DNA from: Ardenticatenaceae bacterium
GTDB lineage: Bacteria > Chloroflexota > Anaerolineae > Promineifilales > Promineifilaceae
DNA: 64,000 bases
NCBI GenBank assembly: GCA_020634415.1
Contig: JACKBT010000012.1
Span: 1 to 64,000 of the forward strand
Direction: 5' to 3'
Below are positions 1 through 36,279 of the stretch, piece after piece (position 1 is the first letter of the stretch; each line of letters starts with the position of its first letter). The notes below the pieces were generated by a model, which saw only the letters and a list, made by a program, of their open reading frames with translations, was not told the origin of the DNA and did no database searches. A program made the translations under genes and the position numbers.

Positions 1-36
1 TTCTTAATAATCGTTCGTTTTTAACTTAGCGATTTT

Positions 37-76
37 GGAGATTGGAGACTGGTCAATCTCTAGTCTCTAGTCTCCA
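37..76. repeat. heptamer-type inverted repeat (GGAGACT family)
   Basis: Short runs of GGAGATT/GGAGACT are followed by the complementary CTAGTCT/CTAGTCTCC runs, forming an imperfect hairpin upstream of the cyclase gene. The same family recurs at 20455-20516, 20816-20875, 30007-30070, 35291-35350 and 36280-36331. Confidence 0.7.
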
Positions 77-131
77 ACGAAACCATGAAGTTATTTGTGA
101 ACGATTACTTATAAGGATCAAGGAGGTAAAT

Positions 132-1694
132 ATGAACAGGTCGAGGTTAGAAAGTCTGTTGAATCAACAGACTGGTTTTGTTCCCCCCAATCCCTATGAT
201 ACAGCCTGGGTGGCTTTAGTGCCCGACAAGCACAATCCCGCCCAACCAGCCTGGCCCCAGGCTCTGCAATATTTGCGTGATACCCAACTGGCGGATGGCG
301 GTTGGGGAGATGAGCATGTCTATCATGCTCACGGGCGCACAATTTGTACGTTGGCTGCTTTATGGGCCTTGTTAGCGTGGGATTGTGATGAGGATATGGC
401 TCGCATTGAGGCGGGGATTCAAGCCCTGCATGAATATGCGGCTTGTATGGCTTTAGAACCTTATGAAACGATAGGCTTTGAAATGCTGCTGCCACGATTG
501 GTGGCCGAGGTCAAAAAATTTGATCTCGATTTGCCTTTGGCGGCTTGGGCCAGGTTCGAGGCATTAACGGCGCAAAAGATGGCACTCATCGGCCGTTTAC
601 AGCCAAATTATGACTCGCCGCGTTCCTGGTGGTTTAGTATGGAAATGTTGTCGGAGGAGCAATTAGGGGAAATTGATGATCGGATACTGAATGTGTATGG
701 CTCGGTGGCAACTTCGCCAGCGGCGACGGCCGCCTATTTACGCGCCAAACGGTTAAAAGGTGAGGATTCCCGTTTGGCGACTGCCTATATTGCCCAGGTG
801 CTGCATGTCAGCCGCGCTGGGGTGGGCTTTTGTTACCCGTTAGAGCAGTTTGAAATGGTGTGGACGTTGGATATTTTGCGGCGGGCTGGTGTTGACCCAG
901 CTTCGCCGCATTTAACCCCATTCATCCATAAGTTAGCCAAAAGCTGGCAATCTTCACCACAGGGTATGTCTTGGAGCCAGACGTTTCCTATTGCTGATGG
1001 TGATATTACGGCCGTTAGCTATACCATCCTTTCTTGGGCTGGGATGCAGCCCAACGATGGCCCCTTCCGCCGCTTCTGGGGGGCAGATTACTACCTCAAC
1101 TATCCCGATGAACTGGTATCCTCCATTTCGGCCAATATTCATGCGTTGGCCTCGCTGCGCTATCAACCCGATAACCCGCAGCATTTGCACATGGCCGAGC
1201 GCATTACATCCTGGCTGCGCGAACAAATGGCCCGAAAAGGACAGTTCCACGACAAATGGCACTTTTCGCCCATCTACGCCACCTCACGCGCCATCGCCGT
1301 CTTAGCCGATTGGGATAATGAAATGGCCCGACAATGCCTTGATTTTCTGCTGGTGCAGCAGAATAGAAATGGCGGTTGGGGTAGTGTGGGGGCGGTTAAT
1401 TTGGAAGAGACGAGCTATGCCACATTAGGACTGATGGTTGCGCATCGCAAAGGCTTGTTGCCAGATAAAGGCCCTCTGAAAATGGCTGATGCTTTCCTCA
1501 AAAAACATATAGGCTGTAGACCTGTTGAACCTTTCTGGATTGGTAAAACATTGTACCAGCCAGTAGGAGTGGCTCATGCTTATGTGTATGGTGCCTATGT
1601 CGCTTTGCAGCAGTTGGATGTGGATTATAAACGGCCGTCTTTCTGGCCTAAACTATCCATATCCCAACTCAGACAGTCTTGGTCGTCATCATAA
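132..1694 (+). CDS. class II diterpene cyclase-like (prenyltransferase/squalene-hopene cyclase fold)
   Basis: Probable cytosolic class II terpene cyclase, which would cyclise a C20 diphosphate by protonation. The 520-residue protein has the alpha-barrel look of the family: an early YDTAWVA motif, DGGWG, and a C-terminal QQNRNGGWG box. The start at 132 is chosen because AAGGAGGTAAAT lies just upstream; an in-frame ATG at 42 has no such site and falls in a repeat. The catalytic box, normally DxDD, reads D289-G-D291-I: the middle Asp (proton donor) is kept but the last Asp is Ile. Related cyclases are known in Herpetosiphon (Chloroflexota). No class I partner is visible, and the next gene runs the other way. 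The family is fairly sure; substrate and product are unknown. Confidence 0.72.
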   Translation: MNRSRLESLLNQQTGFVPPNPYDTAWVALVPDKHNPAQPAWPQALQYLRDTQLADGGWGDEHVYHAHGRTICTLAALWALLAWDCDEDMARIEAGIQALHEYAACMALEPYETIGFEMLLPRLVAEVKKFDLDLPLAAWARFEALTAQKMALIGRLQPNYDSPRSWWFSMEMLSEEQLGEIDDRILNVYGSVATSPAATAAYLRAKRLKGEDSRLATAYIAQVLHVSRAGVGFCYPLEQFEMVWTLDILRRAGVDPASPHLTPFIHKLAKSWQSSPQGMSWSQTFPIADGDITAVSYTILSWAGMQPNDGPFRRFWGADYYLNYPDELVSSISANIHALASLRYQPDNPQHLHMAERITSWLREQMARKGQFHDKWHFSPIYATSRAIAVLADWDNEMARQCLDFLLVQQNRNGGWGSVGAVNLEETSYATLGLMVAHRKGLLPDKGPLKMADAFLKKHIGCRPVEPFWIGKTLYQPVGVAHAYVYGAYVALQQLDVDYKRPSFWPKLSISQLRQSWSSS

Positions 1695-1713
1695 AAAGCA
1701 GCAAGGGGCTATA

Positions 1714-2382
1714 TTATACTGCTCTCTCCAAAGCTGTGGGGAGAGCAGTTAAATCCTTCAGCACCCCATTTGCCAGATCATGCGCCAACAGACGGCGGTT
1801 AACCAGACAAGTGTGCATCCCCACCGCCTGCGCCCCCGCGACATAAGCTGGATCGTCATCAAGCAGCAGACATTCATCAGGTAGCACATCTAATTTCTGG
1901 GCTATGTGCTGATAAGATTCTGCTTGCGGTTTGGCATAGCCAATGACGGGGGCTGCTGCCGCATAATCTACCCACGTCCCTAACCCGCCCGCAGCCAATG
2001 ATTGATCTAAAGTTGCCAGTGAAAAGTTGGAAAGCACCCCCACCTTTAACCCCATCTGCTTACAATATTGCAGAGCAACGGCGGCATCGGCAAACGGCCG
2101 TATCACCCCCAAATAGTCAAAATCAAACAACTCCTGGCGCACAGCCTCACTCACCCCCACCAGATCACTGATATACGTCCAAAACCCCCGAAACAGATCC
2201 CCCTCCTCCACCTCACTTTTGGGCGTTCCAATCACATCACTCCACTTCACCCAACGCTGGGCCAGCTCAATAAGCGGCATATGCAGCCGAGGCTGTAAAA
2301 ACGCCTCGGCCGCATCAATATCAAACTCCGTTAAAACACCATCACGATCAAAAATAACTGCTCGAATTGCCACGCTGCACAC
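1714..2382 (-). CDS. HAD-superfamily hydrolase
   Basis: Cytosolic phosphatase-like HAD hydrolase of about 220 residues. Motif I is FDRDGVLT near the N terminus, with the nucleophile Asp and the acid two residues on. Motif II is LSNFS, motif III the Lys of KPQAESY, and motif IV LLLDDDP, so all catalytic parts are present. The substrate cannot be told. The start is a GTG; a second GTG at 2373 sits at a better distance from GGAG and may be the true start. The gene lies 29 bp downstream of gatB on the same strand, probably in the same transcript, separated by a TAATTACG-type repeat. Confidence 0.75.
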   Translation of the reverse strand: MCSVAIRAVIFDRDGVLTEFDIDAAEAFLQPRLHMPLIELAQRWVKWSDVIGTPKSEVEEGDLFRGFWTYISDLVGVSEAVRQELFDFDYLGVIRPFADAAVALQYCKQMGLKVGVLSNFSLATLDQSLAAGGLGTWVDYAAAAPVIGYAKPQAESYQHIAQKLDVLPDECLLLDDDPAYVAGAQAVGMHTCLVNRRLLAHDLANGVLKDLTALPTALERAV

Positions 2383-2411
2383 TACTCCTGGTAATTCAAA
2401 AATTTGTGTAA

Positions 2412-2443
2412 CTATGTAATTACGTAATCACGTAATTGCTGAT
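2412..2443. repeat. TAATTACG-type tandem/palindromic repeat at gatB 3' end
   Basis: Runs of TAATTACG and TAATCACG overlap the last codons of gatB, so that its C-terminal residues RDYVIT are encoded by the repeat. Similar sequence flanks the IS630-type insertion near 18470 and 19735. Confidence 0.55.
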
Positions 2444-3863
2444 CTAACAACTGATTTACTAAGGCCGGGTTGCCCTTGCCCCGCATGGCCTTCATCACCT
2501 GCCCCACAAAAAAGCCGCGCAACTTATCTTTGCCCCCCAAATAATCGGCCACCATTTTAGGATTATCGCGCAGAACCTGAGCCACTATCTCTGCAATGGC
2601 CGCCTCATCCGAAATCTGGGCCAGCCCCTTAGCTTCCACAATTGTCTGCGCCGACTGTCCCGTTGTGAACATCTCTGCCAGCACCTCTTTGGCTGTGTTG
2701 TTGTTGATGGTCTGTTTGTCTACCAGGGCAATCAACCCCACTAGCGCGGCGGGAGTGACTTGAATATCGGTAATGGCTTGCTTTTGCTCATTCATCAGGC
2801 TGAACAGGTTGTTAATCATCCAATTGGCGACAGATTTGGGATCGGCGTTGTGGGACACGGCCGTTTCAAACCACTCCGCCACCTCCCTTTCCGCCGTCAA
2901 CACCCCTGCATCATACGCCGACAAGCCATACTCAGTTTGGTAGCGTGCCAACTTGGCATCCGGCAGTTCAGGCAAGGCTGCCTGAACCTCAGTCACCCAT
3001 TCATCGGTAATGTCTAAGGGGGGCAAGTCCGGTTCGGGGAAGTAGCGGTAATCTTCCGCTTCCTCTTTGCTGCGTTGGCTAAAGGTTTCGCGCCGGCCTT
3101 CATGCCAGCCTCGTGTTTCTTGCAAAACTGTGCTGCCGGACTGAAGAACGGCCGTTTGCCGTGCAATCTCATAGGCCGTACCATCGGCCAACACGCGGAA
3201 GCTGTTCAAATTCTTCAACTCCGTGCGTTTGCCAAATTCGCTGCTGCCCACTGGCCGAATACTAATATTCGGCTCCACCCGCAGCACCCCCTTCTCCATA
3301 TCACCCGAATTCACGCGCAGATAGCGCAAAATCTGCCGAATCTTGGTGGCATAGGCCCGCGCCTCCTCGCCAGAACGAATATCCGGCTCCGACACAATCT
3401 CCAGCAGCGGCACACCAGAGCGATTGTAATCCACCAGCGAGCCGCCCTCATCCAGATGCGTCAGCTTGCCCGTATCCTCCTCCATATGCACCCGCCGCAC
3501 CCCAATCCGCTTTGTCTCACCCGACTCCAACTCAATATCCAGCCAGCCCTTCACGCCCAACGGCAGTTCATACTGGCTAATCTGGTACGCCTTGGGCAAA
3601 TCGGGGTAAAAGTAATTTTTGCGGGCAAAGATATTGTGCGACTGGATGGTGCAGTTCAAGGCCAGGGCCACGCGCATGGCATACTCCACTGCACGGCGGT
3701 TAATCACGGGCAACATTCCCGGCATCCCGAGACAGATGGGGCAAACGGCCGTATTTGCCTCCGCCTCCACACTATCCACCACCCTACAGCCACAAAACAT
3801 CTTCGAGTCCGTCATCAACTCGGCATGAATCTCCAACCCAATCACTGCTTCATAATTATTCAT
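2412..3863 (-). CDS. gatB: aspartyl/glutamyl-tRNA amidotransferase subunit B
   Basis: GatB of the GatCAB complex, which converts Glu-tRNA(Gln) or Asp-tRNA(Asn) to the amidated form. The 483-residue length is normal. The N terminus [16 protein letters not shown], the [18 protein letters not shown] box and the helical YqeY-like tail (ending around LLDQQLRDY) are all typical. The ATG is 3 nt after the stop of the retropepsin-like gene, so it is probably translated from an upstream operon. Its first 107 bp (3757-3863) occurs twice more upstream, at 4531-4637 and 5142-5242, each time between accessory gene pairs. gatA and gatC are not in the window. The identification is secure. Confidence 0.97.
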
Positions 3864-3866
3864 AGT

Positions 3867-4250
3867 TCAATCCACAAAAGTCAGGCTCAAATCCTGCAAA
3901 TTAATAACCGCCCCAGCCTGACGCAAGAAATCCATCCCCAGAATGCCATTAATTTCAAAACCATAATCCATCCCACCCACTTCAATCTCCAAATTTGGCA
4001 CTTGTTGCTCACCAATTTGAACGTAATCCACACGCCGTGTGAAAACAACCTCAGTGCCACCCACACCGCGAATGGTGTGCAAAGTATCTTGAGGTTCAGG
4101 GGTGATGTGAACGGCCGTTACCCGATCCGCCGCCAAAATCGTTGTTGCCGAACCCGTATCAATCAACACATTATCAATCGTCACCACCAGACCGCGATAA
4201 GCAACCGTAACTTGACTAAAAGGCAAATTATCAACCAACGTGAGCTTCAT
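3867..4250 (-). CDS. retropepsin-like aspartic protease (DTG motif)
   Basis: Small single-domain protein (127 residues) with the aspartic protease active-site motif IDTGSATT around residue 32 and the flap and second-loop signature GILGMDFLRQAGAVINL near the C terminus. It would act as a homodimer, as retropepsins do, in the cytosol; no signal peptide is seen. Its start overlaps the end of the 92-residue gene by 20 nt and its stop lies 3 nt before gatB, so it is the second gene of cassette 1 in the gatB array. The substrate is unknown; the partner protein is a candidate by linkage only. Confidence 0.72.
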   Translation of the reverse strand: MKLTLVDNLPFSQVTVAYRGLVVTIDNVLIDTGSATTILAADRVTAVHITPEPQDTLHTIRGVGGTEVVFTRRVDYVQIGEQQVPNLEIEVGGMDYGFEINGILGMDFLRQAGAVINLQDLSLTFVD

Positions 4251-4509
4251 GGCTTCTGCGAACTCCTAACCAATAACGCACTTCAATAGCCAACTCTTCG
4301 CGGCTAGTATGCACAAAATAAAACTCACGTTCAGGATATTGTTGATGAAGCCGACGATAACTTTGCATCGCACTACCACCATCATCACATTGCTCAATCA
4401 CTCCTAAACGCTCAACATCCCTTTGATTATCCTCGGTCGTATAAGCTTCCAATGCCTCAACTACCAACCATTGCTCAGGATAAGCCTTTCGTATTTCAGT
4501 CCACGTCAT
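4231..4509 (-). CDS. hypothetical protein paired with retropepsin-like protease
   Basis: A 92-residue soluble, acidic protein of unknown function with a [15 protein letters not shown] segment near the N terminus and [18 protein letters not shown] near residue 65. From memory, similar small proteins sit directly before small aspartic proteases in other bacteria, so the two probably work as a pair. The ATG overlaps the stop of the truncated gatB copy 2 (ATGA), which suggests translational coupling to that leader. It is the first gene of cassette 1. Confidence 0.6.
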
Positions 4510-4637
4510 AACGAACCTCCAACTTCATTCGCCTCCGCCTCCACACTATCCACCACCCTACAGCCACAAAACATCTTCGAGTCCGTCATCAACTCGGCAT
4601 GTATCTCCAACCCAATCACTGCTTCATAATTCGTCAT
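4506..4637 (-). pseudogene. truncated 5' copy of gatB (copy 2), 43 codons
   Basis: Bases 4531-4637 repeat the first 107 bp of gatB almost exactly. Visible differences are the second codon (MTNYEA for MNNYEA) and a TGTATC/TGAATC change. The frame stays open for 43 codons: the gatB N terminus as far as VEAEAN, then six unrelated residues, then TGA overlapping the ATG of the next gene. It is a remnant or coupling leader, not a functional GatB. It shares its differences with copy 3, so those two copies are closer to each other than to the intact gene. Confidence 0.9.
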
Positions 4638-4649
4638 GAATTTATCTCT

Positions 4650-4928
4650 CTATGGTTCGATATCCAATTGCTTTTGTAGCTGTGGCAGGAGCGATTGAAT
4701 ATGATCCTGTAAATGTTCCAACGCAATCGTCAGTTCAGCGGCCGTTTCTTGAGCATGATTGGCATCAGAACGATAACTATCGGTACGCAACACAGTCAGT
4801 AGTTCCAGTACATTCTCTGCTTCCGTTTCGATTTCTTGGAGGTGAACGGCCGTTAACCCACCATCACCCACCAACCCCAACAACTGACAAACTTCCTGCC
4901 AAATATCCTGTGTAATTGCTTGCTGCAT
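4650..4928 (-). CDS. hypothetical helical protein of gatB cassette 2
   Basis: Unrecognised 92-residue protein, acidic and mostly helical by composition (many Glu, Gln, Leu), with possible coiled-coil stretches around residues 25-45 and 65-90. It starts 4 nt after the coiled-coil gene upstream and ends 12 nt before the ATG of truncated gatB copy 2. That makes it the second gene of cassette 2. Function unknown; a paired role with the preceding gene is inferred from spacing alone. Confidence 0.55.
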   Translation of the reverse strand: MQQAITQDIWQEVCQLLGLVGDGGLTAVHLQEIETEAENVLELLTVLRTDSYRSDANHAQETAAELTIALEHLQDHIQSLLPQLQKQLDIEP

Positions 4929-4932
4929 CTTA

Positions 4933-5136
4933 CTATCTCCCGCGTCGGCGACGCTGCGCCAAACGCTCTTCTAAACGCTGCACACGAATTGTAAACCCTT
5001 CAATCTCCCGTTCCCAGTGCCGAATGACACCTTCATTTGGCTTGGATTTGAGGCGTTCTTGGGCAATCTTCCCCTCATGCAATTCAATTTGCTGCCGCAA
5101 ACTTTGAATAGCCTTGCGAATAGCACGATTACCCAT
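4933..5136 (-). CDS. small coiled-coil protein of gatB cassette 2
   Basis: A 67-residue basic protein starting MGNRAIRKAIQSLRQQIELH, with heptad-like Leu/Ile spacing almost throughout and an Arg-rich tail (QRRRRGR). It is probably one long coiled coil or helical hairpin. The start at 5136 is chosen over a longer in-frame extension because ATGGGTAA overlaps the stop of truncated gatB copy 3 by 8 nt, as at the other cassette junctions. No function is recognised; nucleic-acid binding is possible from the basic tail. Confidence 0.55.
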   Translation of the reverse strand: MGNRAIRKAIQSLRQQIELHEGKIAQERLKSKPNEGVIRHWEREIEGFTIRVQRLEERLAQRRRRGR

Positions 5137-5242
5137 TTCCTGCCTCCACACTATCCACCACCCTACAGCCACAAAGCATCTTCGAGTCCGTCATCAACTC
5201 GGCATGTATCTCCAACCCAATCACTGCTTCATAATTCGTCAT
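5129..5242 (-). pseudogene. truncated 5' copy of gatB (copy 3), 37 codons
   Basis: Bases 5142-5242 repeat the first 101 bp of gatB, missing one of two tandem GCCTCC hexamers at the inner edge. The frame encodes [16 protein letters not shown] to VVDSVEA, then GNG and a stop that overlaps the next ATG (ATGGGTAA). Its own ATG overlaps the stop of the DNA methyltransferase (ATGA). It carries one Phe-to-Leu change (SKML for SKMF). It is a remnant or leader, not a working gene. Confidence 0.9.
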
Positions 5243-6555
5243 TCGCATCTTTCCAAAATAAGAATATGTTCTTCCACATCTATCTTCGTCACTGTAGATA
5301 GTCGTGTACGCCACAATATCGTTTCCGATTCTCGATAGTTTAGCTTTTGACAGGCAATTAGGCTCAGAAGTTTAGCCGTATAAATCGGCACACGAAAATA
5401 GCTCATTTGATCCCCCACCACAAAAGCCAATTTGGCTCCAACAGGTGTAATCTCCTGCAACTGCTCTAAAACACGAAACATACCACCAAAATATTCTGTT
5501 ACCACACGATGGTATAGTCGCTCAAAACCAGAAGTTGCCCCACGTTCAATACGCTTCTGTTCAATCTCTTGGGCCAACTGCTGAATTTCTGGCACATCAG
5601 CCACATATTTTGAATCGTCATCAGCTACGTATATATTGCGCGTATGGGAACGCAGCATTTCCTTTTTGATAGTCCGCAGATCGCCTTTACTCTGCATAAA
5701 TTCCAGTAAAATCAATTCCAAGCGAGTGGTGCGGGTGTAATCCTTCTCATTGGGGTAGGGAGGTGAGCAGATAATGAAATCAACAGGTGTATCCACAAAC
5801 CCAGCCAACTGACGTGCATCTCCTCTAAAAACTGTTACCTGTCCTGGTTCTTCAATCTTCTGCACCTTTGCCAAATCAGTCCGCATCCGGCGCAATTTAT
5901 CTACAAACAAATTATATACATCCACATCTTTACGCTTTTTAGACACATACACTTCTGGTCCAAAACCCAAATTGGAAGCTGCTACAAATACATCCGCCAA
6001 AGCTAGACGGAATAAATCAGTCAAAGCATCCTCTGGTTCAGTATCTAGCACTTGCTTGATGATTAAACATTTCTGTAAAGGTGTGGAACTAATCCAGTTT
6101 TTAGGCAAAAGGCTCCGAATCGTTTCTCCATCTATTTCCAGTTCAGATTCCGCCAAAATCGTGCCGGGTTGCAACAAATCATCAAATGAAAGCTGAGTGG
6201 CGTACTGTTTACCAATAGCCCGAATCGGCTGCCGAATTCGCTGGCGGAGGGTTTGAAATCGGGTATCAAATTCAGCTAGATCAATATCCCAATTGGCTTT
6301 GACACGACTGGCAAAGGCGGTGACGGGGTTAGCATCTATACCAACGGCCGTAATTCCTCGCCGCTTACATTCCACCAGAGTCGTCCCCGTCCCTACAAAG
6401 GGGTCCAAAACTACATGATTGCGCTCAATGCCAAACGTCTCAATCAAACCAGACACTAGATGATCAGGATAAGATAAGACAAAGCGATACCAATCATGAA
6501 CAGTAGGATCATCAAGTTGCTGGGCTGTGTGATTTGGTCGTTGTAAATCAATCAT
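5239..6555 (-). CDS. DNA methyltransferase (N4-cytosine/N6-adenine type)
   Basis: SAM-dependent DNA methyltransferase of 438 residues. The SAM-binding motif DPFVGTGTT is at residues 51-59, followed by GIDANP (motif II), and the catalytic motif SPPY is near residue 265 (FIICSPPYPNEKDYTR). SPPY favours N4-cytosine methylation, though N6-adenine cannot be excluded. The start overlaps the stop of the restriction enzyme-like gene by 4 nt (ATGA), the layout of a type II restriction-modification operon. Its own stop overlaps the start of truncated gatB copy 3. The recognition sequence cannot be read from the protein. Confidence 0.85.
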   Translation of the reverse strand: MIDLQRPNHTAQQLDDPTVHDWYRFVLSYPDHLVSGLIETFGIERNHVVLDPFVGTGTTLVECKRRGITAVGIDANPVTAFASRVKANWDIDLAEFDTRFQTLRQRIRQPIRAIGKQYATQLSFDDLLQPGTILAESELEIDGETIRSLLPKNWISSTPLQKCLIIKQVLDTEPEDALTDLFRLALADVFVAASNLGFGPEVYVSKKRKDVDVYNLFVDKLRRMRTDLAKVQKIEEPGQVTVFRGDARQLAGFVDTPVDFIICSPPYPNEKDYTRTTRLELILLEFMQSKGDLRTIKKEMLRSHTRNIYVADDDSKYVADVPEIQQLAQEIEQKRIERGATSGFERLYHRVVTEYFGGMFRVLEQLQEITPVGAKLAFVVGDQMSYFRVPIYTAKLLSLIACQKLNYRESETILWRTRLSTVTKIDVEEHILILERCE

Positions 6556-7334
6556 GATTCTTGCACCAGTAAGTATCGTTTGTATCGCTTGGTGGCAATT
6601 TGGTTGGGGTCGGCAACGGCCGTAAATTCCAAAAACATATACGACCCATCAGACAACAGTTTGAGACCGATCGGCCGTACCATCAAATCAGGGAACTGCG
6701 CTTTGGCAAATCGAACCATTTGCGTCACTTGAATTACTCCCAACTGGTCTTTAGCTGAATCAACTTTGGCCTCAATCGGCAAAATAAAACCATTCCCGTC
6801 CGTATCTAGACCAATATACAAATCATCAATTTCAATCTGGCCTGTTTCAGCCACCGCCGTCCGAAAATGGCCTTGCAGATGATAAGTGGTCAACGAAGTA
6901 AAAATGTCTAACAGGCGATTATGGCGAATCCGCGCCAAGATTGCTTGTTCATCAGAGCTTTGATATTTCAACACAATTTGCGGCGTGGCATCAGGGATTT
7001 TAGTGATTTCGATGTCAGAAGGAATGTCAAAATAAGGCGAACAAGCTAACTTGCGAAAGGCATATTTACTTTTGCCCTTGCCTTCAATTGCCCAAGAGCC
7101 ATATTGCATAATAAATTCTGGCAAATCCGAGCGACCAGAGCGATAGGTATAAACAATATCAGGCACATTTCTGGTCGAAAGCTGCAATCCTAATTCACGA
7201 ATAGCTCTCTCAATATCTGCTTTCGAGAAAGGCAAATGATCGGCATTCGCTACAAAGACGCTTTCAAAAACTCGAATGATCACTTGATCATAGACTTTCA
7301 AACTTTCAGTTTCCAACAGATTCTCCTTACCCAT
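6552..7334 (-). CDS. putative type II restriction endonuclease (PD-(D/E)XK-like)
   Basis: A 260-residue protein partnered with the DNA methyltransferase. A possible PD-(D/E)XK core is visible: acidic residues in QIEIDDLYIGLD (residues 167-177) followed by ILPIEAK with Glu188 and Lys190. The call rests on that motif plus position; the fold is not proven. The start at 7334 makes ATGGGTAA overlap the aminotransferase stop. A longer in-frame extension inside the aminotransferase gene is unlikely to be translated. It is the outermost gene of the cassette array. Confidence 0.62.
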   Translation of the reverse strand: MGKENLLETESLKVYDQVIIRVFESVFVANADHLPFSKADIERAIRELGLQLSTRNVPDIVYTYRSGRSDLPEFIMQYGSWAIEGKGKSKYAFRKLACSPYFDIPSDIEITKIPDATPQIVLKYQSSDEQAILARIRHNRLLDIFTSLTTYHLQGHFRTAVAETGQIEIDDLYIGLDTDGNGFILPIEAKVDSAKDQLGVIQVTQMVRFAKAQFPDLMVRPIGLKLLSDGSYMFLEFTAVADPNQIATKRYKRYLLVQES

Positions 7335-8490
7335 GCCGCCGCATAAAGCGTTCCAGACGGTTGAGGGCTTCCTCGATTTTTTCGTAGGCGGTGGCGTAGG
7401 AGGCCCGCATGAAGCCCGCACCGCTAGCGCCAAAGGCTTCGCCAGGAACCATCGCCACCTCTTCCTCTTCCAGCAAGGTCATGGCAAACTCATCACCCGA
7501 CATGCCCGTGCGGGCAATGGAGGGGAAGGCGTAGAAAGCCCCACGCGGCTCGAAGCAGTCCAGCCCCAGTGTGTTGAAACCGCCCACAATCAGTTGGCGG
7601 CGGCGGTCATATTCCTGGCGCATCTGCTCCACGTAGCTGTCGGCTTCGGGGGTGAAGGCGGCGATAGCGGCGGCTTGGGCGGTGGTGGGGGCGGACATGA
7701 TGGTGTATTGATGCACTTTACGCATGGCGGCCAGCAGGTCGGGATTGGCGCAGGCGAAGCCCAAGCGCCAGCCCGTCATGGCGTAATCTTTGCTAAAGCC
7801 GCCCAGCAAAATGGTGCGGTCGCGCATTCCGGGCAGCGTTGGCACACAAATATGCTCAATGCCGTACACGAGGCGGTCGTAAATCTCGTCGGAGATGACG
7901 AGGAGGTCGTGTTTTTCGGCAACGACGGCGATGTCGGCCATGATGTTGGGGGTCATGACGGCACCGGTGGGGTTGTTGGGATAGCCAATGAGCAGGGCTT
8001 TGGTTTGGGGGGTGATGGCGGCTTCGATGGTTTCGGCCGTTACTTGAAAATCATCCGCCACATAACAGGGCACAGGCACGGCCACGCCGCCTGCCAATGT
8101 TACTTCGGGGGCATAGGAGACGAAGCAGGGTTCGGGAATGATCACTTCGTCGCCGGGGTCGAGAACGGCCGTACACGCCAAATACAACGCCTCACTGCCC
8201 CCCACCGTGATAATCGCCTCCGTCTCGGCATCATACTGCACCCCATACAGCTTGGCTAAATTAGCCACCAACGCTTGGCGCAGCTCTTGAATGCCGCTGT
8301 TGGAGGTGTACGCCGTCTCGCCGCGCCGCAGCGAGGCAATGCCCGCCTCCAAAATGGGCTTCGGTGTCACAAAATCTGGCTCGCCAATACCCAGCGAAAT
8401 CACATCCTTCATGGTGGCGGCAATATCAAAAAACTTGCGAATCCCCGACGGGGGAACCTGTTGGACTCGTTTGGAAATATAGCGTTGCAT
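7327..8490 (-). CDS. class I/II PLP-dependent aminotransferase
   Basis: Cytosolic aminotransferase of 387 residues in the aspartate/aromatic aminotransferase superfamily. Hallmarks are SLGIGEPDF near the N terminus, NNPTGAV, ISDEIYDRL, and the PLP lysine in GGFSKDYAMTGWRLGF. The start at 8490 (MQRYISKRV) follows AGGAGACAAG. Longer reading upstream would run through the 24-bp inverted repeat and is rejected. In the absence of the inserted cassettes it would lie next to gatB. The amino donor and acceptor are not predictable. Confidence 0.88.
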   Translation of the reverse strand: MQRYISKRVQQVPPSGIRKFFDIAATMKDVISLGIGEPDFVTPKPILEAGIASLRRGETAYTSNSGIQELRQALVANLAKLYGVQYDAETEAIITVGGSEALYLACTAVLDPGDEVIIPEPCFVSYAPEVTLAGGVAVPVPCYVADDFQVTAETIEAAITPQTKALLIGYPNNPTGAVMTPNIMADIAVVAEKHDLLVISDEIYDRLVYGIEHICVPTLPGMRDRTILLGGFSKDYAMTGWRLGFACANPDLLAAMRKVHQYTIMSAPTTAQAAAIAAFTPEADSYVEQMRQEYDRRRQLIVGGFNTLGLDCFEPRGAFYAFPSIARTGMSGDEFAMTLLEEEEVAMVPGEAFGASGAGFMRASYATAYEKIEEALNRLERFMRRHG

Positions 8491-8500
8491 CTTGTCTCCT

Positions 8501-8560
8501 GGTGTATTGGTATAGTGGTGTATTGGCATAGTCTTTAATACACCACTATACCAATACACC
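8501..8560. repeat. perfect 24-bp inverted repeat, 12-nt loop
   Basis: Arms at 8501-8524 and 8537-8560 are exactly complementary and are built from the octamer-like unit GGTGTATT/GGTATAGT. It lies just upstream of the aminotransferase start site. It could be an RNA hairpin or a repetitive element of the same style as the other short-unit repeats here. There is no U-tract on either side. Confidence 0.85.
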
Positions 8561-8626
8561 AATACACCCATTATTCCTTTATTTATATCCGCCACTATAC
8601 CGACAAATCACCCCTATGCAAAGCGC

Positions 8627-10483
8627 CTACGGCGTATCGGTGGCGCAGCGGAAGCCGAGGTTGGCGCGGGCCACGAGGGGGTCGAAGGAGGTGCGGGCGG
8701 TGGTGGACACGTCCTCGATGTCGGAGAGCCAGGAGCCGCCGCGAATGACTTTGAATTCGCCTTCGGTGGGGCCAAGCGGATTGGTGTCGCTGATGTCGCG
8801 GTAGGCGCGGAAGTCGTACCAGTCGTTGACCCATTCCATGACGTTGCCGCTCATGTCGTAGAGGCCGATGGGGGAACGGCCGTTCCCATAACTCCCCACT
8901 GGTGCCGTATCCCGATGTCCATCATCCACCGTCAAATCATGCCGCTCATTAGGGCAGTTGGCATCACAAAAATTCAGCTTCGTGCCATCAAACGCCTCGC
9001 CCCAGGGATAGCGCAATTTAAGCTGCTGCACCGGGTCGAAGCTGGCGGCCTTCTCCCATTCCGCCTCCGACGGCAGCCGCGCCTCGCGCCATTCACAAAA
9101 CGCCTCCGCCTGGAACCAGTTAACAAAGAGAACGGGATAGTCGTTGTAGGCAGGATCGTCATAATACGAATCGTGATAGGTGGCGCGGGGGCTTTGTGGC
9201 GGATTGCACACGCCAGCGGCCACGCATTGGGCATATTGGCCGTTGGTCACTTCGGTTTCGTCAATGTAATAAGGATTGAGCCGCACCAATTGCGACGGCT
9301 GTTCATCATCCTCGCCCTCATCGTTGCCAATGCGGAAGACCCCGCCGGGCATGAAGATCATCCGCGCTCCGGTTTCGGTGATGATGGGTTCGGGAGTGGG
9401 GGTGGGGGCTTCGGTGGGGGGCGGCAGGGGGGTGGGCGTGGGCGCGATGGCGGTGAGGGCGGCGATGACGACGGATTCGACGGTGGCGGTGGCCCCGATT
9501 TCGGCCTCGTTTGGTTCCTGGTTGCGGCTGGCATAGCTGAAGAGGCCGATGAAAGCGATGAGAAGGACGAGGACGGCCGTTAATCCCCAAATCGTCCTTT
9601 GTTCAATCTGTTTGCGGCGGACGGCGGGCAGGACGGGCGGCGGGGCGGCTGGCTGGGGAACGGCCGTTCGTCGCAGTTCCTCCGTGGGCAGCGGGTCGGG
9701 ATGGCCGATGGGGCGATTGAGTGCTTTGGCAAAATCAGCGGCCGTTTCGTAACGGGCATCGGCGCGAATGGTCATCGCCCGGGCGGCCACCAACGATAGA
9801 TACGGTTCCACATCGGGGTTCACCTCTCGCGCCGGCACCAAATCCACCAGCCCGCTTTCGCGGCTGAGGGCTTTGGGTGGCACACGCGCCGTCAGCAGGG
9901 TGTAGAGGGTGGCTCCCAGGCTGTAGATGTCGCTGGTGGCCGCAACCTCGGTTTGCGCCTGCTGTTCTGGTGCGCCGTAGCCATCAGCATGGGGCCGCAC
10001 GCCCAAACCCGGCAGGCCGGTGTCTACAAGATAGAGGGTGTTATCGGCCGTTAGCCGCAAATTGGCGGGCTTGATGTTGAGATGCAGCACGCCCTGCTTG
10101 TGCAAATAGCCCACTGGTTCACAGGCCGCTTGCATCCAGCCAATAATCAAATCGGAGGGCAGGGCGCCATACTGGTCAATCAGGCTTTGCAAATCTACGC
10201 CGTCTATATAGTCGCTGACGAGGTATTGCCCCACGCCTTCCAGGGGAAAATGATCGCGGAAAGTGGCCAGTTGGGGATGGCTGAGTTGGGTCAGGCGGCG
10301 GGCTTCGGCACGGAATCGCTTTTGAATGTCGGGCGAGGGATCGAGGTACTCTTTGATGGCGTAGTGGCGTTTGTCTTTGGTGTCATAGGCGCGGTAGGTT
10401 GCGCCGTATGGCCCCAAGGCCATCAGGCTGACAATGCGGTAACGGTAGTTGAGAATTTCGCCAGGAAGCAGGGGCATAATCAA
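8627..10483 (-). CDS. Ser/Thr pseudokinase fused to a formylglycine-generating-enzyme-like domain
   Basis: A 618-residue membrane protein in three parts. (1) A protein kinase fold at residues 14-270: Lys44 (YAIKEYL) and Asp154 (DTG for DFG) are kept, but the catalytic loop reads HLNIKPAN, with Asn136 replacing the catalytic Asp. (2) A membrane segment at about 290-315 and a Pro/Thr linker (TPTPTPLPP). (3) An extracytoplasmic FGE/SUMF1-like domain with MIFMPGGVFRIG, DETEVTNGQY, RLPSEAEWEKAA, GNVMEWVNDWY and IRGGSW. Kinase-FGE fusions are known in filamentous and gliding bacteria. Loss of the catalytic Asp suggests a sensor or scaffold. The strand and GC bias match its neighbours. Confidence 0.85.
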   Translation of the reverse strand: MIMPLLPGEILNYRYRIVSLMALGPYGATYRAYDTKDKRHYAIKEYLDPSPDIQKRFRAEARRLTQLSHPQLATFRDHFPLEGVGQYLVSDYIDGVDLQSLIDQYGALPSDLIIGWMQAACEPVGYLHKQGVLHLNIKPANLRLTADNTLYLVDTGLPGLGVRPHADGYGAPEQQAQTEVAATSDIYSLGATLYTLLTARVPPKALSRESGLVDLVPAREVNPDVEPYLSLVAARAMTIRADARYETAADFAKALNRPIGHPDPLPTEELRRTAVPQPAAPPPVLPAVRRKQIEQRTIWGLTAVLVLLIAFIGLFSYASRNQEPNEAEIGATATVESVVIAALTAIAPTPTPLPPPTEAPTPTPEPIITETGARMIFMPGGVFRIGNDEGEDDEQPSQLVRLNPYYIDETEVTNGQYAQCVAAGVCNPPQSPRATYHDSYYDDPAYNDYPVLFVNWFQAEAFCEWREARLPSEAEWEKAASFDPVQQLKLRYPWGEAFDGTKLNFCDANCPNERHDLTVDDGHRDTAPVGSYGNGRSPIGLYDMSGNVMEWVNDWYDFRAYRDISDTNPLGPTEGEFKVIRGGSWLSDIEDVSTTARTSFDPLVARANLGFRCATDTP

Positions 10484-10488
10484 ATCCC

Positions 10489-10517
10489 GTAGAGACGTTG
10501 CATTGCAACGTCTCTAC
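10489..10517. repeat. perfect 29-nt palindrome (GTAGAGACGTTGCA...)
   Basis: Two 14-nt arms around a single central T: GTAGAGACGTTGCA and its exact complement. It lies between the pseudokinase gene and the antiporter gene, just upstream of the former. Palindromes starting GTAGAGACG are, from memory, dispersed in cyanobacterial and Chloroflexota genomes. A shorter GTAGGG-type palindrome occurs at 12481-12498 and a similar one at 36385-36412. Confidence 0.8.
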
Positions 10518-10543
10518 ATTGCAACACGAATTATACCAGACCC

Positions 10544-12469
10544 TTACGCATCAAACCGCAGCATCACCTCTTCCAGCTTATCTGGTGCGCCTACCATGGT
10601 TACCTTGTCGCCCAGGTGCAGGCGGGTGTAGCCATGCGAGATGATGGTGTTTTGGCCGCGACTGACAGAGAGGACGAGGACATCGAAGGGCAGGCGCAGA
10701 TCGCGCAGGGTGAGGCCATCCAGATCGGGGTTGCGCACTTCGATGTCCATCACATCCTGACGGCCGTCCATGCCCAACAGCAGCGACGCGCCCACAGGTG
10801 AACGCACATATTGTTCCAGGAGAGTGACAACGGCCGTTTGCGGCTCCACAATCAACACCCCCAACTCATGCAAACGCGCCCCATTCTCCCACTCATTCAA
10901 GCGCACAATAACCGTTTCCGTGCCAAAATGCTCATAAATTAATTCACACAGTTCATAATTCTCCTCATCAGACAAAAGCGCCACCACACTATCCGCATTC
11001 GCCAAATCCAAATTGCGCAGCGTCTCCACATTCCATTCGGCCGCCAGATGAATCTCAATATCCGCCTGCTCTAGCTCCTGCTGATACATCTCATTGCGCG
11101 TGGCAATCTTCACCTGCCAATCATGCTGCCGTAATTGGCGGGCCAACTGCACCGATTGAGGCGATAGGCCAAAGATAATCACATCGCGGAGGCCATCAAA
11201 AGCACGGCTCTCGGCCCGCGTGTGGGATTCGCCCACGCGGTTGATGGCCCACTTTAGCAAGGGCGGCCCAACGATTTGGTTGAGAACAATCACCCCAATG
11301 GAAAGCGTGGCTAGTTCTGGCCCCCAAGTGGCAAACTCCACGCCAATCTCCTTGGCCAAACCCACACTCACCCCAGCCTGGGTGATGAAACCAAAGCCCA
11401 GCAAGGCATTGCTGCGGCTGCGGTCTTGGGCCGCCAGACTGCCAGCAAAACTGCCAATGAAAATGCCTGCCAGCCGCACTGTGAAGAGGATGAGGATGAT
11501 GCCCCAGGCTTCACCAATCACATCCAGCTCAAGCTCGATGCCCACCAGGGTGAAGAACAGCAGGAAAACCAGCGGGGACATCTCTTCGATGGTGTGTTGA
11601 AAGTCGGAGGCGAGGCGGGAGTAGTTGGCAACATAGAAACCGGCTGTCATGCAGATGAGCAGCGGTTCGGAAAAGAGGCCAACGGGCAGCGAGAAGAGAT
11701 GAAAATCATGAAGCTCGGTGGAAAGCAGGAAGACTCCCAGCCCTACCAGCAAGATGAGGACGCTTTTGAGGCTGTGGTGGGGGAGTTTGGTGATGGTGTG
11801 CAGAAGTAGGCCGATGAGGATGCCTAACCCAATGTCTAGCAAAATCTCGAAGAGAACCAGGATGAGCAGGCCGATGTTGAAATTGGCGCCTTCGACGAAA
11901 ACGGCCGCTATTGAAACCGATGCCGCAAAAATGATGATGACCACAGCATCCTTGAGCACCGTTGCGCCTAAGACTTTGTGCGTAAAAGGGCCTCGCGCTC
12001 GCAGCTCTTTGATAATGGCCAATGCGGACGAAGGCGAACGGGCAATCATGATGGTGGCCCCCAACAAGGCGATGGCCAAGACTTCGCGTTGGGGCAGTGA
12101 AGCCATAAAGGGAACCATCTCTTTGATGAGGACAAAGGCGGCGATGCCCAGGGCGAAGACGGCCACCACCTGGCCGCTGATGATGGCAATGATGCTGCGA
12201 AAGTAGCCGCGAATGACTTGTAGCTCTAATTCAGCGCCAGCGGCGAAGGCAATGAAGGCCAATGCCAGCTCGTCGAGCAGCAGAAATTGGGGGATGTTTT
12301 GCTCGTGAACGAAGTCCAGAACGAAGGGGCCAGTGAGGATGCCGACGAATAAAAAGCCGCTGATGAGGGGGAGTTTGAAGCGGGCGAAGATGTCGCCCAT
12401 TTGCCGTGAAGCCAGCACGAGAATGGACAGACCAATGAAGACGGGGGCGATTTCAAGTATTTTTTCCAT
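10544..12469 (-). CDS. CPA2-type cation:proton antiporter with RCK (TrkA_N/TrkA_C) domains
   Basis: A 641-residue inner-membrane Kef-type transporter. The first ~390 residues hold about 12 hydrophobic segments of the Na+/H+ exchanger fold (for example MIARSPSSALAIIKEL and FGFITQAGVSVGLAKEIG). Then comes an RCK N domain (VIIFGLSPQSVQLARQLRQ, ~residue 425; DSVVALLSDEENYEL) and a TrkA_C domain at ~560-640. It probably exports K+ or Na+ in exchange for protons under ligand control. It stands alone between the pseudokinase and NUDIX genes on the same strand. Confidence 0.88.
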   Translation of the reverse strand: MEKILEIAPVFIGLSILVLASRQMGDIFARFKLPLISGFLFVGILTGPFVLDFVHEQNIPQFLLLDELALAFIAFAAGAELELQVIRGYFRSIIAIISGQVVAVFALGIAAFVLIKEMVPFMASLPQREVLAIALLGATIMIARSPSSALAIIKELRARGPFTHKVLGATVLKDAVVIIIFAASVSIAAVFVEGANFNIGLLILVLFEILLDIGLGILIGLLLHTITKLPHHSLKSVLILLVGLGVFLLSTELHDFHLFSLPVGLFSEPLLICMTAGFYVANYSRLASDFQHTIEEMSPLVFLLFFTLVGIELELDVIGEAWGIILILFTVRLAGIFIGSFAGSLAAQDRSRSNALLGFGFITQAGVSVGLAKEIGVEFATWGPELATLSIGVIVLNQIVGPPLLKWAINRVGESHTRAESRAFDGLRDVIIFGLSPQSVQLARQLRQHDWQVKIATRNEMYQQELEQADIEIHLAAEWNVETLRNLDLANADSVVALLSDEENYELCELIYEHFGTETVIVRLNEWENGARLHELGVLIVEPQTAVVTLLEQYVRSPVGASLLLGMDGRQDVMDIEVRNPDLDGLTLRDLRLPFDVLVLSVSRGQNTIISHGYTRLHLGDKVTMVGAPDKLEEVMLRFDA

Positions 12470-12480
12470 GTTCTCCTAAT

Positions 12481-12498
12481 GTAGGGGCGCGGCCCTAC
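12481..12498. repeat. short palindrome GTAGGGGCGCGGCCCTAC
   Basis: An 18-nt near-perfect palindrome between the antiporter start and the NUDIX stop, of the GTAGGG-type also seen at 36385-36412. Confidence 0.6.
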
Positions 12499-13058
12499 GA
12501 ATAATCCATCCGCTCGAAGCGGCGCAGTTGGGCTTCTTCGTTGGCCCCTATCATTTCTACTTCTACCAGTGGGGCGGCTTGGGCCGATTCGGCAAATTCG
12601 GTGAGCATGGCGTAATCGCTGGGGATGATGCTGTTTTGCTGGTGCAGGGTGTGGAGTTCGGCGCGGGTGAACCAGGTGACAGCACCTTCGTATTGTTCGC
12701 GGGCGGTGCCGGCAACGGCCGTTACTTCACACACCAACAGCAAAAAATGGGCCGCTGTGCCATCGTCCACCAGCCGCTCGCTGACGAGGCCGCGCACCGC
12801 TACGAATTGGGTGTCGAGGCTGGTTTCTTCTTTGACTTCACGGATAACGGCCGTTGCCAACTCCTCGCCAAAATCCCACTTGCCCCCCACCAAGGCCCAC
12901 ATCCCCTTGTAAGGCTCGCTGTTGCGCCGAATCAGCAGATAACGGGAAACCGGCGCGGTTTGATCGCAGATAATCGCCACAATGATGGGCGCGGGGTATT
13001 TCTGTTCGCGCCAGCGTTGGGCCAGGGGCAAAGTTGTCAGTTGCTCAAAATGTGTCAC
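12495..13058 (-). CDS. NUDIX hydrolase
   Basis: A 187-residue cytosolic pyrophosphohydrolase. The NUDIX box starts GGKWDFGEEL and continues REVKEETSL, keeping the metal-binding REXXEE core; the usual Gly after it is Ser. The N-terminal strand PIIVAIICDQ and the RRNSEPYKGMWALVGGKW lead-in are typical of nucleotide-cleaning members. The substrate cannot be assigned. It reads in the same direction as the antiporter gene, 25 bp upstream of it. Confidence 0.85.
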   Translation of the reverse strand: MTHFEQLTTLPLAQRWREQKYPAPIIVAIICDQTAPVSRYLLIRRNSEPYKGMWALVGGKWDFGEELATAVIREVKEETSLDTQFVAVRGLVSERLVDDGTAAHFLLLVCEVTAVAGTAREQYEGAVTWFTRAELHTLHQQNSIIPSDYAMLTEFAESAQAAPLVEVEMIGANEEAQLRRFERMDYS

Positions 13059-13070
13059 GAATCTTCCTCA

Positions 13071-13133
13071 GGGTCTTTAGGATTTGAAGGGATGATCGGT
13101 ATTTGTGGTGTCCACCCCATGAATTCCCAAAGA
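13071..13133. repeat. dispersed element X, copy 1 (63 bp)
   Basis: From GGGTCTTTAGGATTTGAAGG to ATTCCCAAAGA. The reverse complement of almost the same sequence is at 36354-36449, where it carries an extra 33 bp containing a palindrome. The ends are weakly inverted (GGGTCTTTAGG against TCTTTGGG). No coding potential. Confidence 0.75.
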
Positions 13134-13155
13134 GACATCTTCCTCACTACTAATA

Positions 13156-13246
13156 GCCGTTGCGTCCTTGCGGGGCTGTGCCGGTCTCCTGACCGAGCTA
13201 CCCGTCTGGCGCGGTGTGACCCCGGACAGAGCAACTGCGTAAGTCT
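13156..13246 (+). repeat. 92-bp structured dispersed repeat, copy A
   Basis: Diverged copy of the repeat at 13406-13497 and 36167-36258. The core from GGGCTGTG to CTGCGTAAGTC is conserved with scattered substitutions, and the 5' end is more worn. See copy C for structure. Confidence 0.8.
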
Positions 13247-13405
13247 TGCTTAAATAATGTGCTGTGGTGCTTGAAGGTGCAGCTCATGTGGCCCACTTTT
13301 GGGGGAAATGATGATTTTGGATTGTTACCACTCACAGTGGAGTTTAACGGATGTTATAATGGGGGGCGAGAGATCAGATTTTTTTTTACAGATTGATAAC
13401 AATAA

Positions 13406-13497
13406 GGAGTTACACACTTGAAGGGCTGTGGCCGACCTCCTGGCCGAGCTGCCCGTCTGGCGTGGTGTGATAGCGGCCAGAGCAACTGCGTAAGTCC
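13406..13497 (+). repeat. 92-bp structured dispersed repeat, copy B
   Basis: Same length as copy C (92 bp), with terminal inverted ends GGAGTTACAC and GCGTAAGTCC. It ends 7 bp before the ATG of the methyltransferase gene. An open frame running through it into that gene is repeat-derived and not part of the protein. Confidence 0.85.
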
Positions 13498-13504
13498 TCA
13501 GAAT

Positions 13505-36129: not shown

Positions 36130-36166
36130 ACCTGCCCTTCAGTGCTTAGGAATGAGGATTGAATTA

Positions 36167-36258
36167 GGAGTTACGTACTTGAAGTGCTGTGGCCGGCCTC
36201 CTGGCCGAGCCACCTGTCTGGCGCGGTGTGACACCGGCCAGAGCAACTGCGTAAGTCC
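36167..36258 (+). repeat. 92-bp structured dispersed repeat, copy C
   Basis: Best-preserved copy. The ends GGAGTTACGTAC and CTGCGTAAGTCC form an imperfect inverted pair (9 of 12). Inside are two hairpins: GTGGC...GCCAC, and TCTGGC-CGGTGT with ACACCG-GCCAGA. The design fits a small non-autonomous mobile element or a structured RNA. Copies A and B are at 13156-13246 and 13406-13497. Confidence 0.85.
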
Positions 36259-36279
36259 TATGAATAATCTACGAAACTG

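Follow-up and report, generated by a model that had tools for sequence, protein, structure and literature searches.

Gene Content of the AT-gatB Junction

Between an aminotransferase gene (AT) and a complete gatB, the window (the whole 64,000-nt stretch of DNA that was analysed) carries three pairs of genes and two truncated copies of the gatB 5′ end. The features, listed in the direction of gatB, are as follows:

7327..8490, minus strand: PLP-dependent aminotransferase (AT; Pfam/NCBIfam), conserved upstream neighbour and left edge of the junction
6552..7334, minus strand: type II restriction endonuclease-like gene (RE; PADLOC REase_II, 6.8e-60, 200.6 bits)
5239..6555, minus strand: DNA methyltransferase, N4/N6 type (MTase; Pfam N6_N4_Mtase, PADLOC MTase_II)
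5142..5242, minus strand: gatB 5′ copy 1, bp 1-101 of gatB, in a 37-aa open frame (5129-5242)
4933..5136, minus strand: short coiled-coil ORF (coil) of 67 aa, with a family member at the G012 AT-gatB junction (G012 being a relative's genome)
4650..4928, minus strand: 92-aa ORF partnering the coil, no family assigned by Pfam, NCBIfam or PADLOC
4531..4637, minus strand: gatB 5′ copy 2, matching gatB bp 1-107 with a weak extension to 4527, in a 43-aa open frame (4506-4637)
4231..4509, minus strand: PDC-M08A, 92-aa ORF, candidate defence gene (PADLOC 8.7e-33)
3867..4250, minus strand: retropepsin-like aspartyl protease, PDC-M08B, candidate defence gene (PADLOC 5.3e-45; Pfam Asp_protease_2)
2412..3863, minus strand: complete gatB (Asp/Glu-tRNA amidotransferase subunit B; NCBIfam equivalog, 662.9 bits)
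3757..3863, minus strand: third repeat copy, bp 1-107 of full gatB, inside the complete gene

The order in the gatB direction was AT-RE-MTase-[gatB 1-101]-coil-92-aa-[gatB 1-107]-PDC-M08A-retropepsin/PDC-M08B-full gatB. The gene pairs had been described correctly in the original prediction, with REase_II/MTase_II and PDC-M08A/PDC-M08B recognised by PADLOC HMMs and all genes lying in the gatB direction on the minus strand. The RE start codon lies within the AT stop region (ATGGGTAA overlap). RE had no Pfam match at E ≤ 0.001; it was found in 10 genomes of the order, with an MTase homologue adjoining it in nine. The restriction-modification (R-M) genes are one of three units; they have AT on one side and copy 1 on the other, and thus no gatB copy on both sides. 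No family was assigned to the coiled-coil ORF by Pfam, NCBIfam or PADLOC, a Tropomyosin match falling below the curated cut-off, and the family of its 92-aa partner (4650..4928) occurred in 5 of 56 genomes of the order, in three of those five at the AT-gatB junction. PDC-M08A and PDC-M08B are adjacent in the window (PADLOC), and a retropepsin adjoined M08A at 10 of the 16 M08A loci examined. The ORFs between AT and gatB gave no transposase family match (Pfam, NCBIfam, PADLOC), and none of the three inverted-repeat pairs of at least 25 nt within positions 1-14000 bounds the gene units.

Direct Repeats of the gatB 5′ End

A direct-repeat scan located the gatB 5′ end at 3753-3863, 4527-4637 and 5132-5242, all on the minus strand, as one of five direct-repeat families of at least 45 nt within the window. 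The predicted threefold presence of this end in one orientation is real, copy 1 spanning 101 bp and copy 2 107 bp. Compared over 101 positions from the ATG, copy 1 (5142-5242) has a single difference from copy 2 (4531-4637) and four from full gatB, and copy 2 has three differences from full gatB. Identity among the two truncated copies and the full gene is 96-99%, a similarity far above chance. The match to gatB stops after bp 101 in copy 1 and after bp 107 in copy 2 (weakly to 111), so that the single inner endpoint once proposed for all copies gave way to ends that lie near each other and are not identical. Both truncated copies form open frames, of 37 aa (copy 1) and 43 aa (copy 2); the stop of the former overlaps the coil gene start by 8 nt and the stop of the latter overlaps the PDC-M08A gene start by 4 nt (ATGA).

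The AT-gatB Junction in Relatives

AT adjoins gatB in 26 of the 46 relative genomes examined. Eight of these AT-linked junctions were short (≤159 bp) and 18 were occupied by 0.46-3.0 kb of differing cargo, frequently a single gene, with toxin-antitoxin (TA) or R-M-type genes in 9 of the 18 (some assigned by homology only, and DUF433 counted among them). All eight short-junction genomes are distant from the window, and none of the relatives compared is a close strain that would give a true before/after pair. The search of relatives for short, singly occupied and multiply occupied junctions returned all three, with differing contents; the constant flanks, varied defence-type cargo and short forms are those by which a defence-gene hotspot is recognised, and the junction is an accessory-gene hotspot in these relatives. 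Remnants of cargo were also present. The 3′ end of the LRR-Roc gene of G003 is left as 65 bp in G032 and 25 bp in G033, the short G001 junction holds 48 bp of an MNT gene, and the 92-aa gene of G005 has an internal deletion; these remnants are turnover scars.

A convincing gatB 5′ copy was absent from 17 of the 18 occupied junctions, the exception being G031. This count leaves out weaker matches in G032 (E 5e-4) and G035 (E 0.003), and a shuffled gap control gave 7 matches at E ≤ 0.05 across 23 junctions x 5. Extra matches to the gatB 5′ end occurred in 4 of 49 genomes (G007, G015, G031, G038), of which three can be put down to overlapping or ending contigs (G007 judging from locus length), while the AT 5′ end, used as a control, gave exactly one match per genome in 32 of 56 genomes, always in long frames. 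Genomes sharing cargo displayed no clear excess identity at the gatB 5′ end, most bins lying at 0.6-0.8 nt identity, with the relatives too diverged. Since 17 of 18 occupied junctions had no convincing copy and the cargo was often one gene, a gatB copy is neither required nor usual. The proposal that the same process acted repeatedly stands in part: the hotspot and the parallel gatB 5′ copies support it, but just 1 of 18 occupied relative junctions carries such a copy. To call the locus a new kind of island was too strong.

Comparison with Genome G012

The order in G012 was AT-coil-92aa-HTH-RE-MTase-gatB, of which the window order AT-RE-MTase-[gatB5′]-coil-92aa-[gatB5′] is a circular permutation. 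Amino-acid identity between the window and G012 was 72% for the coil, 78% for the 92-aa protein, 75% for RE and 71% for MTase, and for the flanking genes 73% (gatB) and 80% (AT). Beyond the copy 1 joint, the window resembles the bases preceding the coil in G012 (CAGGAAATG vs CACGGAATG). Because this core-like divergence contrasts with gatB copies that are 96-99% identical, the coil/92-aa and R-M pairs seem to have resided here for a long time, and the scars to be recent. A rearrangement scar is the better reading of at least copy 1, since the coil/92-aa and R-M genes lie at the same G012 junction, in permuted order and diverged like AT and gatB; for these pairs the same evidence did not support the predicted fresh insertions. 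A proposed fusion of RE to the AT 3′ flank by deletion gave a weak alignment, its score being reached by 7 to 21 of 500 shuffles (five genomes).

Independent Parallels

The expectation that gatB 5′ copies would occur beyond the window was confirmed in G031, another lineage with copies of its own, in the order AT-gatB5′(124 bp)-glycosyltransferase-decayed gatB piece-MntA-HepT-gatB. Its two good gatB copies differ in 13 codons, nine of them synonymous, and the truncated copy has CCC at codon 25 in common with the functional gatB of G035, as if the copies had come from separate lineages. The more decayed gatB copy of G031 is the one closer to gatB. In the distant Anaerolineae genome G127, a BrnT gene lies, in the opposite orientation, between 164-bp gatB 5′ repeats. 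These differ at 9 of 63 aligned positions in the leader and at 1 of 99 in the coding part (Fisher p ~0.001), as if the copies had diverged as working genes. G096 lacks the BrnT insert, as does G058 as far as its sequence is visible. At the opposite end of the gene, the relative G024 has HicAB followed by a gatB 3′-end copy, with a 117-bp repeat. The inner ends within gatB were at 101 and 107 in the window, 124 in G031, and 98 and 99 in G127.

In some short metagenomic gatB leaders a foreign tail takes over at codons ~34-39, clearly in P0001 and P0006 and by eye only in P0002, P0004 and P0008. A 71-aa gatB query matched 239 proteins, of which 120 were listed. An automatic tail test of 131 proteins returned 25 with an unaligned tail of at least three residues, including the short leaders P0001 and P0006; the short tails of P0002, P0004 and P0008 escaped it. 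The remaining tails, mostly at codons 49-116 and from many lineages, looked on inspection like frameshifts, contig ends or adapter read-through and were left out of the count. The gatB leader of P0001 is the same as in the window, and its tail is similar but not identical (RIGGSS vs EVGGSL), as seen in a protein whose source could be a related sample.

Origin of the gatB Copies

The gatB 5′ copies are best explained as scars of recombination that used the gatB start as a homologous anchor while cargo was gained, lost and shuffled, an explanation to which we give about an even chance. The end of an island piece lying ~100 bp inside gatB would be fused to the upstream edge of the cargo, either as a tandem-duplication joint or when a linear fragment, from the same strain or one related to it, became circular. 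One crossover within the gatB 5′ end would then produce gatB(1-~100)-cargo-full gatB, leaving an intact gatB and one short leftover copy, and differential gene loss from two such units could give the permuted order. RecA dependence, a circular or tandem intermediate and the order of losses are steps that we infer. One study describes circular entry by single crossover after which part of the homologous gene end was duplicated, over 109-950 bp in 14 sequenced clones (PMC3240628); the gatB coding lengths seen here (98-124 bp) are narrower than the broad range expected under such recombination. The G031 decay pattern, with the nearer copy more decayed, is a poor fit to simple stacking with the newest unit next to gatB. 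The PDC-M08 unit may be a real import, because the M08A family, present in 14 of 56 genomes of the order, had no match within any AT-gatB junction. Two further observations speak against recombination of this kind, namely the single convincing copy among 18 junctions and the opposite orientation of the G127 insert.

The main rival, an R-M-type insertion at a ~100-bp staggered break in gatB, with fill-in duplicating the target and twice in succession, is somewhat unlikely. The gene types and the duplication size match published R-M cases, where duplications are "in the order of 100 bp" (PMC3874152); the 164-bp BrnT repeats of G127 and the 117-bp HicAB repeat of G024, at either end of gatB, are in keeping with this, and in G096 the site occupied in G127 is seen free of the insert. 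However, the R-M and coil/92-aa genes are present at the G012 junction with core-like divergence, the G031 copies differ mostly synonymously with one matching another lineage at codon 25, and the G127 repeat is more diverged in its leader than in its coding part. Given the G012 divergence, the G031 codons and the G127 leader, copies from different lineages fit better than duplication in situ.

A site-specific recombinase with an attachment site ~100-124 bp inside gatB, for which incoming units would carry the gatB 5′ end and restore the gene, much as tRNA-targeting islands restore their target gene, appears highly unlikely. The clustered inner ends (101, 107, 124, 98, 99) and the metagenomic leaders with foreign tails at codons ~34-39 would suit it, as would the integrase traces in distant genomes: a gatB 5′ copy in G058 (a distant family) immediately preceded by a complete integron integrase, the 3′ end of that integrase upstream of full gatB in G058:C3 and its 5′ end before the truncated copy of G127, and a weak 37-bp match upstream of gatB in G096. 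Yet the window has no IntI homologue at 1e-5, the end positions differ by up to 26 bp, in the window no more than ~20 bases separate a unit from the gatB ATG that follows, leaving no room there for attC, and G024 has a like pattern at the opposite gatB end. IntI occurred in 21 of 56 order genomes at E ≤ 1e-60, never on a gatB-matching contig, which in fragmented genomes is not proof of distance. The least probable account is an assembly chimera joining strain variants with different cargo through a common gatB start. The window could come from a metagenome assembly, and contigs of G015, G018, G031 and G038 end or overlap near the gatB 5′ end, which points to strain variation at the locus; the copies nevertheless have their own differences and run straight into the cargo with overlapping start and stop codons, P0001 repeats the same gatB leader with a similar tail, and the same architecture lies within single contigs in G127 and G031.

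Anchored recombination would have a wider form if the first ~100 bp of gatB were a portable docking sequence, with [cargo + gatB 5′ end] units circulating between strains and even distant Anaerolineae, a proposal that we regard as decidedly improbable. Such units would enter any gatB by recombination there, always restore the gene and stack in arrays, with the window, G031, G127 and the metagenomic short leaders as members. They would amount to a recombinase-free integron counterpart (or one with a trans-acting recombinase) built on a housekeeping gene.

Relation to Known Systems

Defence islands and integrons are compared here by their generally known features. As in defence islands and accessory hotspots, two conserved genes enclose a varying set of TA, R-M and candidate defence genes; the gatB hotspot differs in its small size (0.46-3.5 kb), its gatB 5′ scars and the lack of a mobile element seen in the window junction. 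Like integrons, it has small units stacked one way beside a fixed point, and in G058 an integrase next to gatB, but the window has no integrase and there is none on the gatB contigs of the order. R-M systems reportedly insert with long target duplication, in work attributed to Nobusato et al. 2000 and Furuta et al. 2010. The likeness lies in R-M-like genes and in gene units flanked by direct repeats of ~100 bp (101 and 107 bp in the window, 124 bp in G031, 164 bp in G127). The differences are two scars at one gene, a locus that is a hotspot within an order, a candidate defence pair and a pair without family between the copies, and G031 copies seemingly of different lineage origin. R-M units flanked by ~100-bp direct repeats, some moving unlinked to mobile elements, are described in three papers (PMC3874152, PMC3031569, PMC1643837). 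Homology-facilitated illegitimate recombination and circle integration by single crossover (PMC3240628) have in common with the present case a homologous anchor, an illegitimate joint and partial gene-end duplication; the present case differs in being deduced from sequence alone, and more than once at one natural locus.

One housekeeping gene records several gain and loss events as scars of differing age in at least two distant lineages, and gatB itself stays unbroken while defence-type genes come and go beside it. The locus bears on how small defence and TA pairs move without a mobile element. In a limited look at the open literature, we know of no report in print of the gatB hotspot. The locus lets strain sequencing separate insertion with target duplication from homology-anchored recombination, and short open frames starting as gatB are a cheap genomic signature for finding further cases.

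Repeats of 55-600 bp were also sought in 0.97 Mb of loci, and those of L126, L142, L201, L009, L134, L131, L208 and L203 were examined, leaving out those of L006, L143, L151, L155 and L219. The repeats of G024:C110 (L203), considered as attC sites, look instead like nested ACGGCCGT-bounded intergenic repeats. L126 (G024) has a gene-end copy around a small unit, and L208 (G012) has a partial retropepsin copy, likewise a gene-end copy around a small unit and less clear than L126.

Truncated gatB copies in the window

The original prediction that the 5' end of gatB is present three times in the same orientation was borne out by a repeat search and alignment of the window, with the first ~100 bp of the gene recovered in three occurrences. 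In bacteria relying on its pathway, gatB is an essential gene. All genes between the PLP-dependent aminotransferase gene (AT) and gatB are on the minus strand, and read in the gatB direction the order is as follows.

7327–8490, minus strand: AT
6552–7334, minus strand: restriction enzyme gene (RE)
5239–6555, minus strand: methyltransferase gene (MTase)
5142–5242, minus strand: gatB bp 1–101 (copy 1)
4933–5136, minus strand: coil ORF
4650–4928, minus strand: 92-aa ORF
4531–4637, minus strand: gatB bp 1–107 (copy 2)
4231–4509, minus strand: PDC-M08A
3867–4250, minus strand: PDC-M08B (retropepsin)
2412–3863, minus strand: complete gatB

Copy 1 differed from copy 2 at 1 of 101 positions, and the full gatB differed from copy 1 at 4 of 101 and from copy 2 at 3 of 101. 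The events that made the copies were therefore recent (96–99% identity). Each of the two copies forms an open frame that runs into the following gene, its stop codon overlapping that gene's start by 8 nt in copy 1 and 4 nt in copy 2, and the truncated frames may be translationally coupled to the downstream genes. The 64-kb window contains 94 occurrences of the palindrome ACGGCCGT (about 1.3 expected from composition), one of them beginning at gatB bp 112, directly beside the repeat ends. A second direct-repeat family of ~105 nt (65–88% identity to the reference copy) was present at 13150–13505 and 36162–36266, with two copies 251 bp apart and a third 23 kb away.

PADLOC identified the RE as REase_II (200.6 bits) and the MTase as MTase_II, the latter also matching N6_N4_Mtase (Pfam), and named PDC-M08A/PDC-M08B as a candidate defence pair, PDC denoting phage defence candidate. 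Homologues of RE and MTase adjoin in 9 of the 10 RE-bearing genomes of the order. No family could be assigned to the coil ORF or the 92-aa protein, and the PDC-M08 unit was found at no other AT–gatB junction.

The junction in related genomes

Loci were taken from named MAGs and from 56 genomes of one order. A match to the gatB N-terminus was present in 49 of the 56, and 46 of these were examined (G055, G056 and G057 were left out). AT was located upstream of gatB within the examined stretch in 26 genomes and was not in the other 20, in some because the contig ended. The comparison of upstream regions proposed in the original prediction revealed both short junctions (8 of 26; 8–159 bp) and occupied ones (18; 462–3039 bp), with differing cargo. 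Cargo families were assigned by family search for scanned proteins and by a homology table for the remainder. The junctions contained MntA-HepT (G031, G033), TumE-type genes (G005, G013, G014, G015), PIN genes (G013, G035), DUF433 (G018), R-M genes (G012), the 92-aa family (G012, G015, G032), glycosyltransferase-like genes (G002, G004, G023, G024, G030, G031), an LRR-Roc-COR-EAD7 protein (G003) and other cargo (G044, G045). TA- or R-M-type genes were present in 9 of the 18 occupied junctions, counting DUF433, which we take to be TA-type. A convincing gatB 5' copy was found in only one of the 18.

Remnants indicate both gain and loss of genes at the junction. The LRR-Roc gene, whole in G003, persists as 3'-end fragments of 65 bp in G032 (E 2.7e-23) and 25 bp in G033 (E 1.1e-6), 48 bp of an MNT gene remain in the short junction of G001 (E 1.3e-12), and the 92-aa gene, whole in G015, retains both ends in G005 with its middle missing. 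Several contigs (G015:C549/C339, G018:C153, G031:C18/C65, G038:C141/C259) terminate or overlap inside gatB close to its 5' end, probably reflecting strain variation at the junction; in contrast, all 32 matches to the AT 5' end lay within long frames.

Amino-acid identity between the window and G012 was 72% for the coil ORF, 78% for the 92-aa ORF, 75% for RE and 71% for MTase, the accessory genes being as diverged as the core genes (gatB 73%, AT 80%). This fits a long residence of the four genes at the junction, or an ancient transfer. Relative to G012, the genes of the window are circularly permuted, and the bases just beyond the copy 1 joint resemble those preceding the coil ORF in G012. The RE start now lies within the AT stop region; the bases after it show a weak similarity to the sequence 3' of AT in relatives, which is no more than suggestive.

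gatB copies in G031, G024 and G127

G031 (L117) displayed the order AT, 228 bp, gatB bp 1–124, glycosyltransferase, decayed gatB piece, MntA-HepT and gatB. The decayed piece corresponds to bp 19–51 (BLAST E 3.5e-6); its alignment scored 25, whereas 500 shuffles of the region, which was selected once the match was known, reached at most 17. The bp 1–124 copy has 89.5% identity to the full gatB, differing in 13 codons, nine of them synonymously. Of the four non-synonymous differences, that at codon 19 also separates the two overlapping contigs. Codon 25 of the truncated copy reads CCC, a codon shared with the functional gatB of G035. Such a pattern is typical of separate lineages and not of a decayed duplicate. 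In G024 (L126, 3093–3975) HicAB lies downstream of gatB and upstream of a gatB 3'-end copy (91% over 117 bp), mirroring the arrangement in the window.

In the distant Anaerolineae genome G127, a 164-bp repeat, consisting of an untranslated leader and gatB bp 1–99, flanks a BrnT gene together with an ORF of 84 aa without family assignment, both in opposite orientation. Its copies differ at 9 of 63 aligned leader positions plus 2 gap columns and at 1 of 99 coding positions, and are probably of separate ancestry. The insert is missing at gatB in G096, and in G058:C3 the visible sequence before the full gatB (~200 bp) corresponds to an integron integrase 3' end, not to the G127 insert. A separate G127 contig carries a third copy, which extends to bp 98 and is matched by a gatB 5' copy in G058:C44 (L239), located 72 bp downstream of a complete integron integrase (18–1249; TIGR02249, 496 bits). 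The 5' end of this integrase was also observed upstream of the truncated gatB copy in G127, as was a weak 37-bp integrase match upstream of gatB in G096 (further loci concerned in G058, G127 and G096: L238, L216, L237).

Origin of the repeats

By its anatomy, with direct repeats of ~100 bp, the window belongs with R-M long-target-duplication insertions, for which PMC3874152 describes target duplications on a scale of 100 bp. Two observations nevertheless favour recombination anchored on gatB homology over staggered-break insertion with such a duplication: this cargo also resides at the corresponding junction of G012, and separate ancestry is indicated for the copies of G031 and, probably, for those of G127. 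A tandem duplication, or the re-entry of a circularised fragment through a crossover in the gatB 5' end, would give two units, and if each then lost different genes the permuted order would result. Homology anchoring does not explain why the inner ends fall within a narrow range (98–124 bp of coding sequence), and this keeps alive site-specific recombination near the gatB 5' end, against which the ORFs between AT and gatB matched no recombinase family and no IntI homologue was found in the window. For the circular route there is a laboratory precedent in PMC3240628, where circular incoming DNA left partial gene duplications of 109–950 bp.

Similar arrangements elsewhere

Locus L203 (G024:C110, 1–3800) carries a row of TA-type genes, including BrnT (Pfam), HicA/HicB-like genes (by eye) and a PDC-M08 pair (homology), separated by nested 44–107 nt repeats bounded by ACGGCCGT. 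After the PDC-M08 pair at L208 (G012:C16, 5484–8506) come genes of 345 and 339 aa, in that order, with a partial retropepsin copy (95 bp, 80%) between them, possibly a tandem-duplication scar at another locus.

Among 15 matches to metagenomic short proteins, five (P0001, P0002, P0004, P0006, P0008) begin as gatB and, by eye, switch at codons ~34–39; the remaining 10 were classed as distant gatB, contig-end partials or adapter artefacts. Of the five, only P0001 and P0006 were flagged by an automatic tail test, and P0001 has a tail resembling the one in window copy 2.
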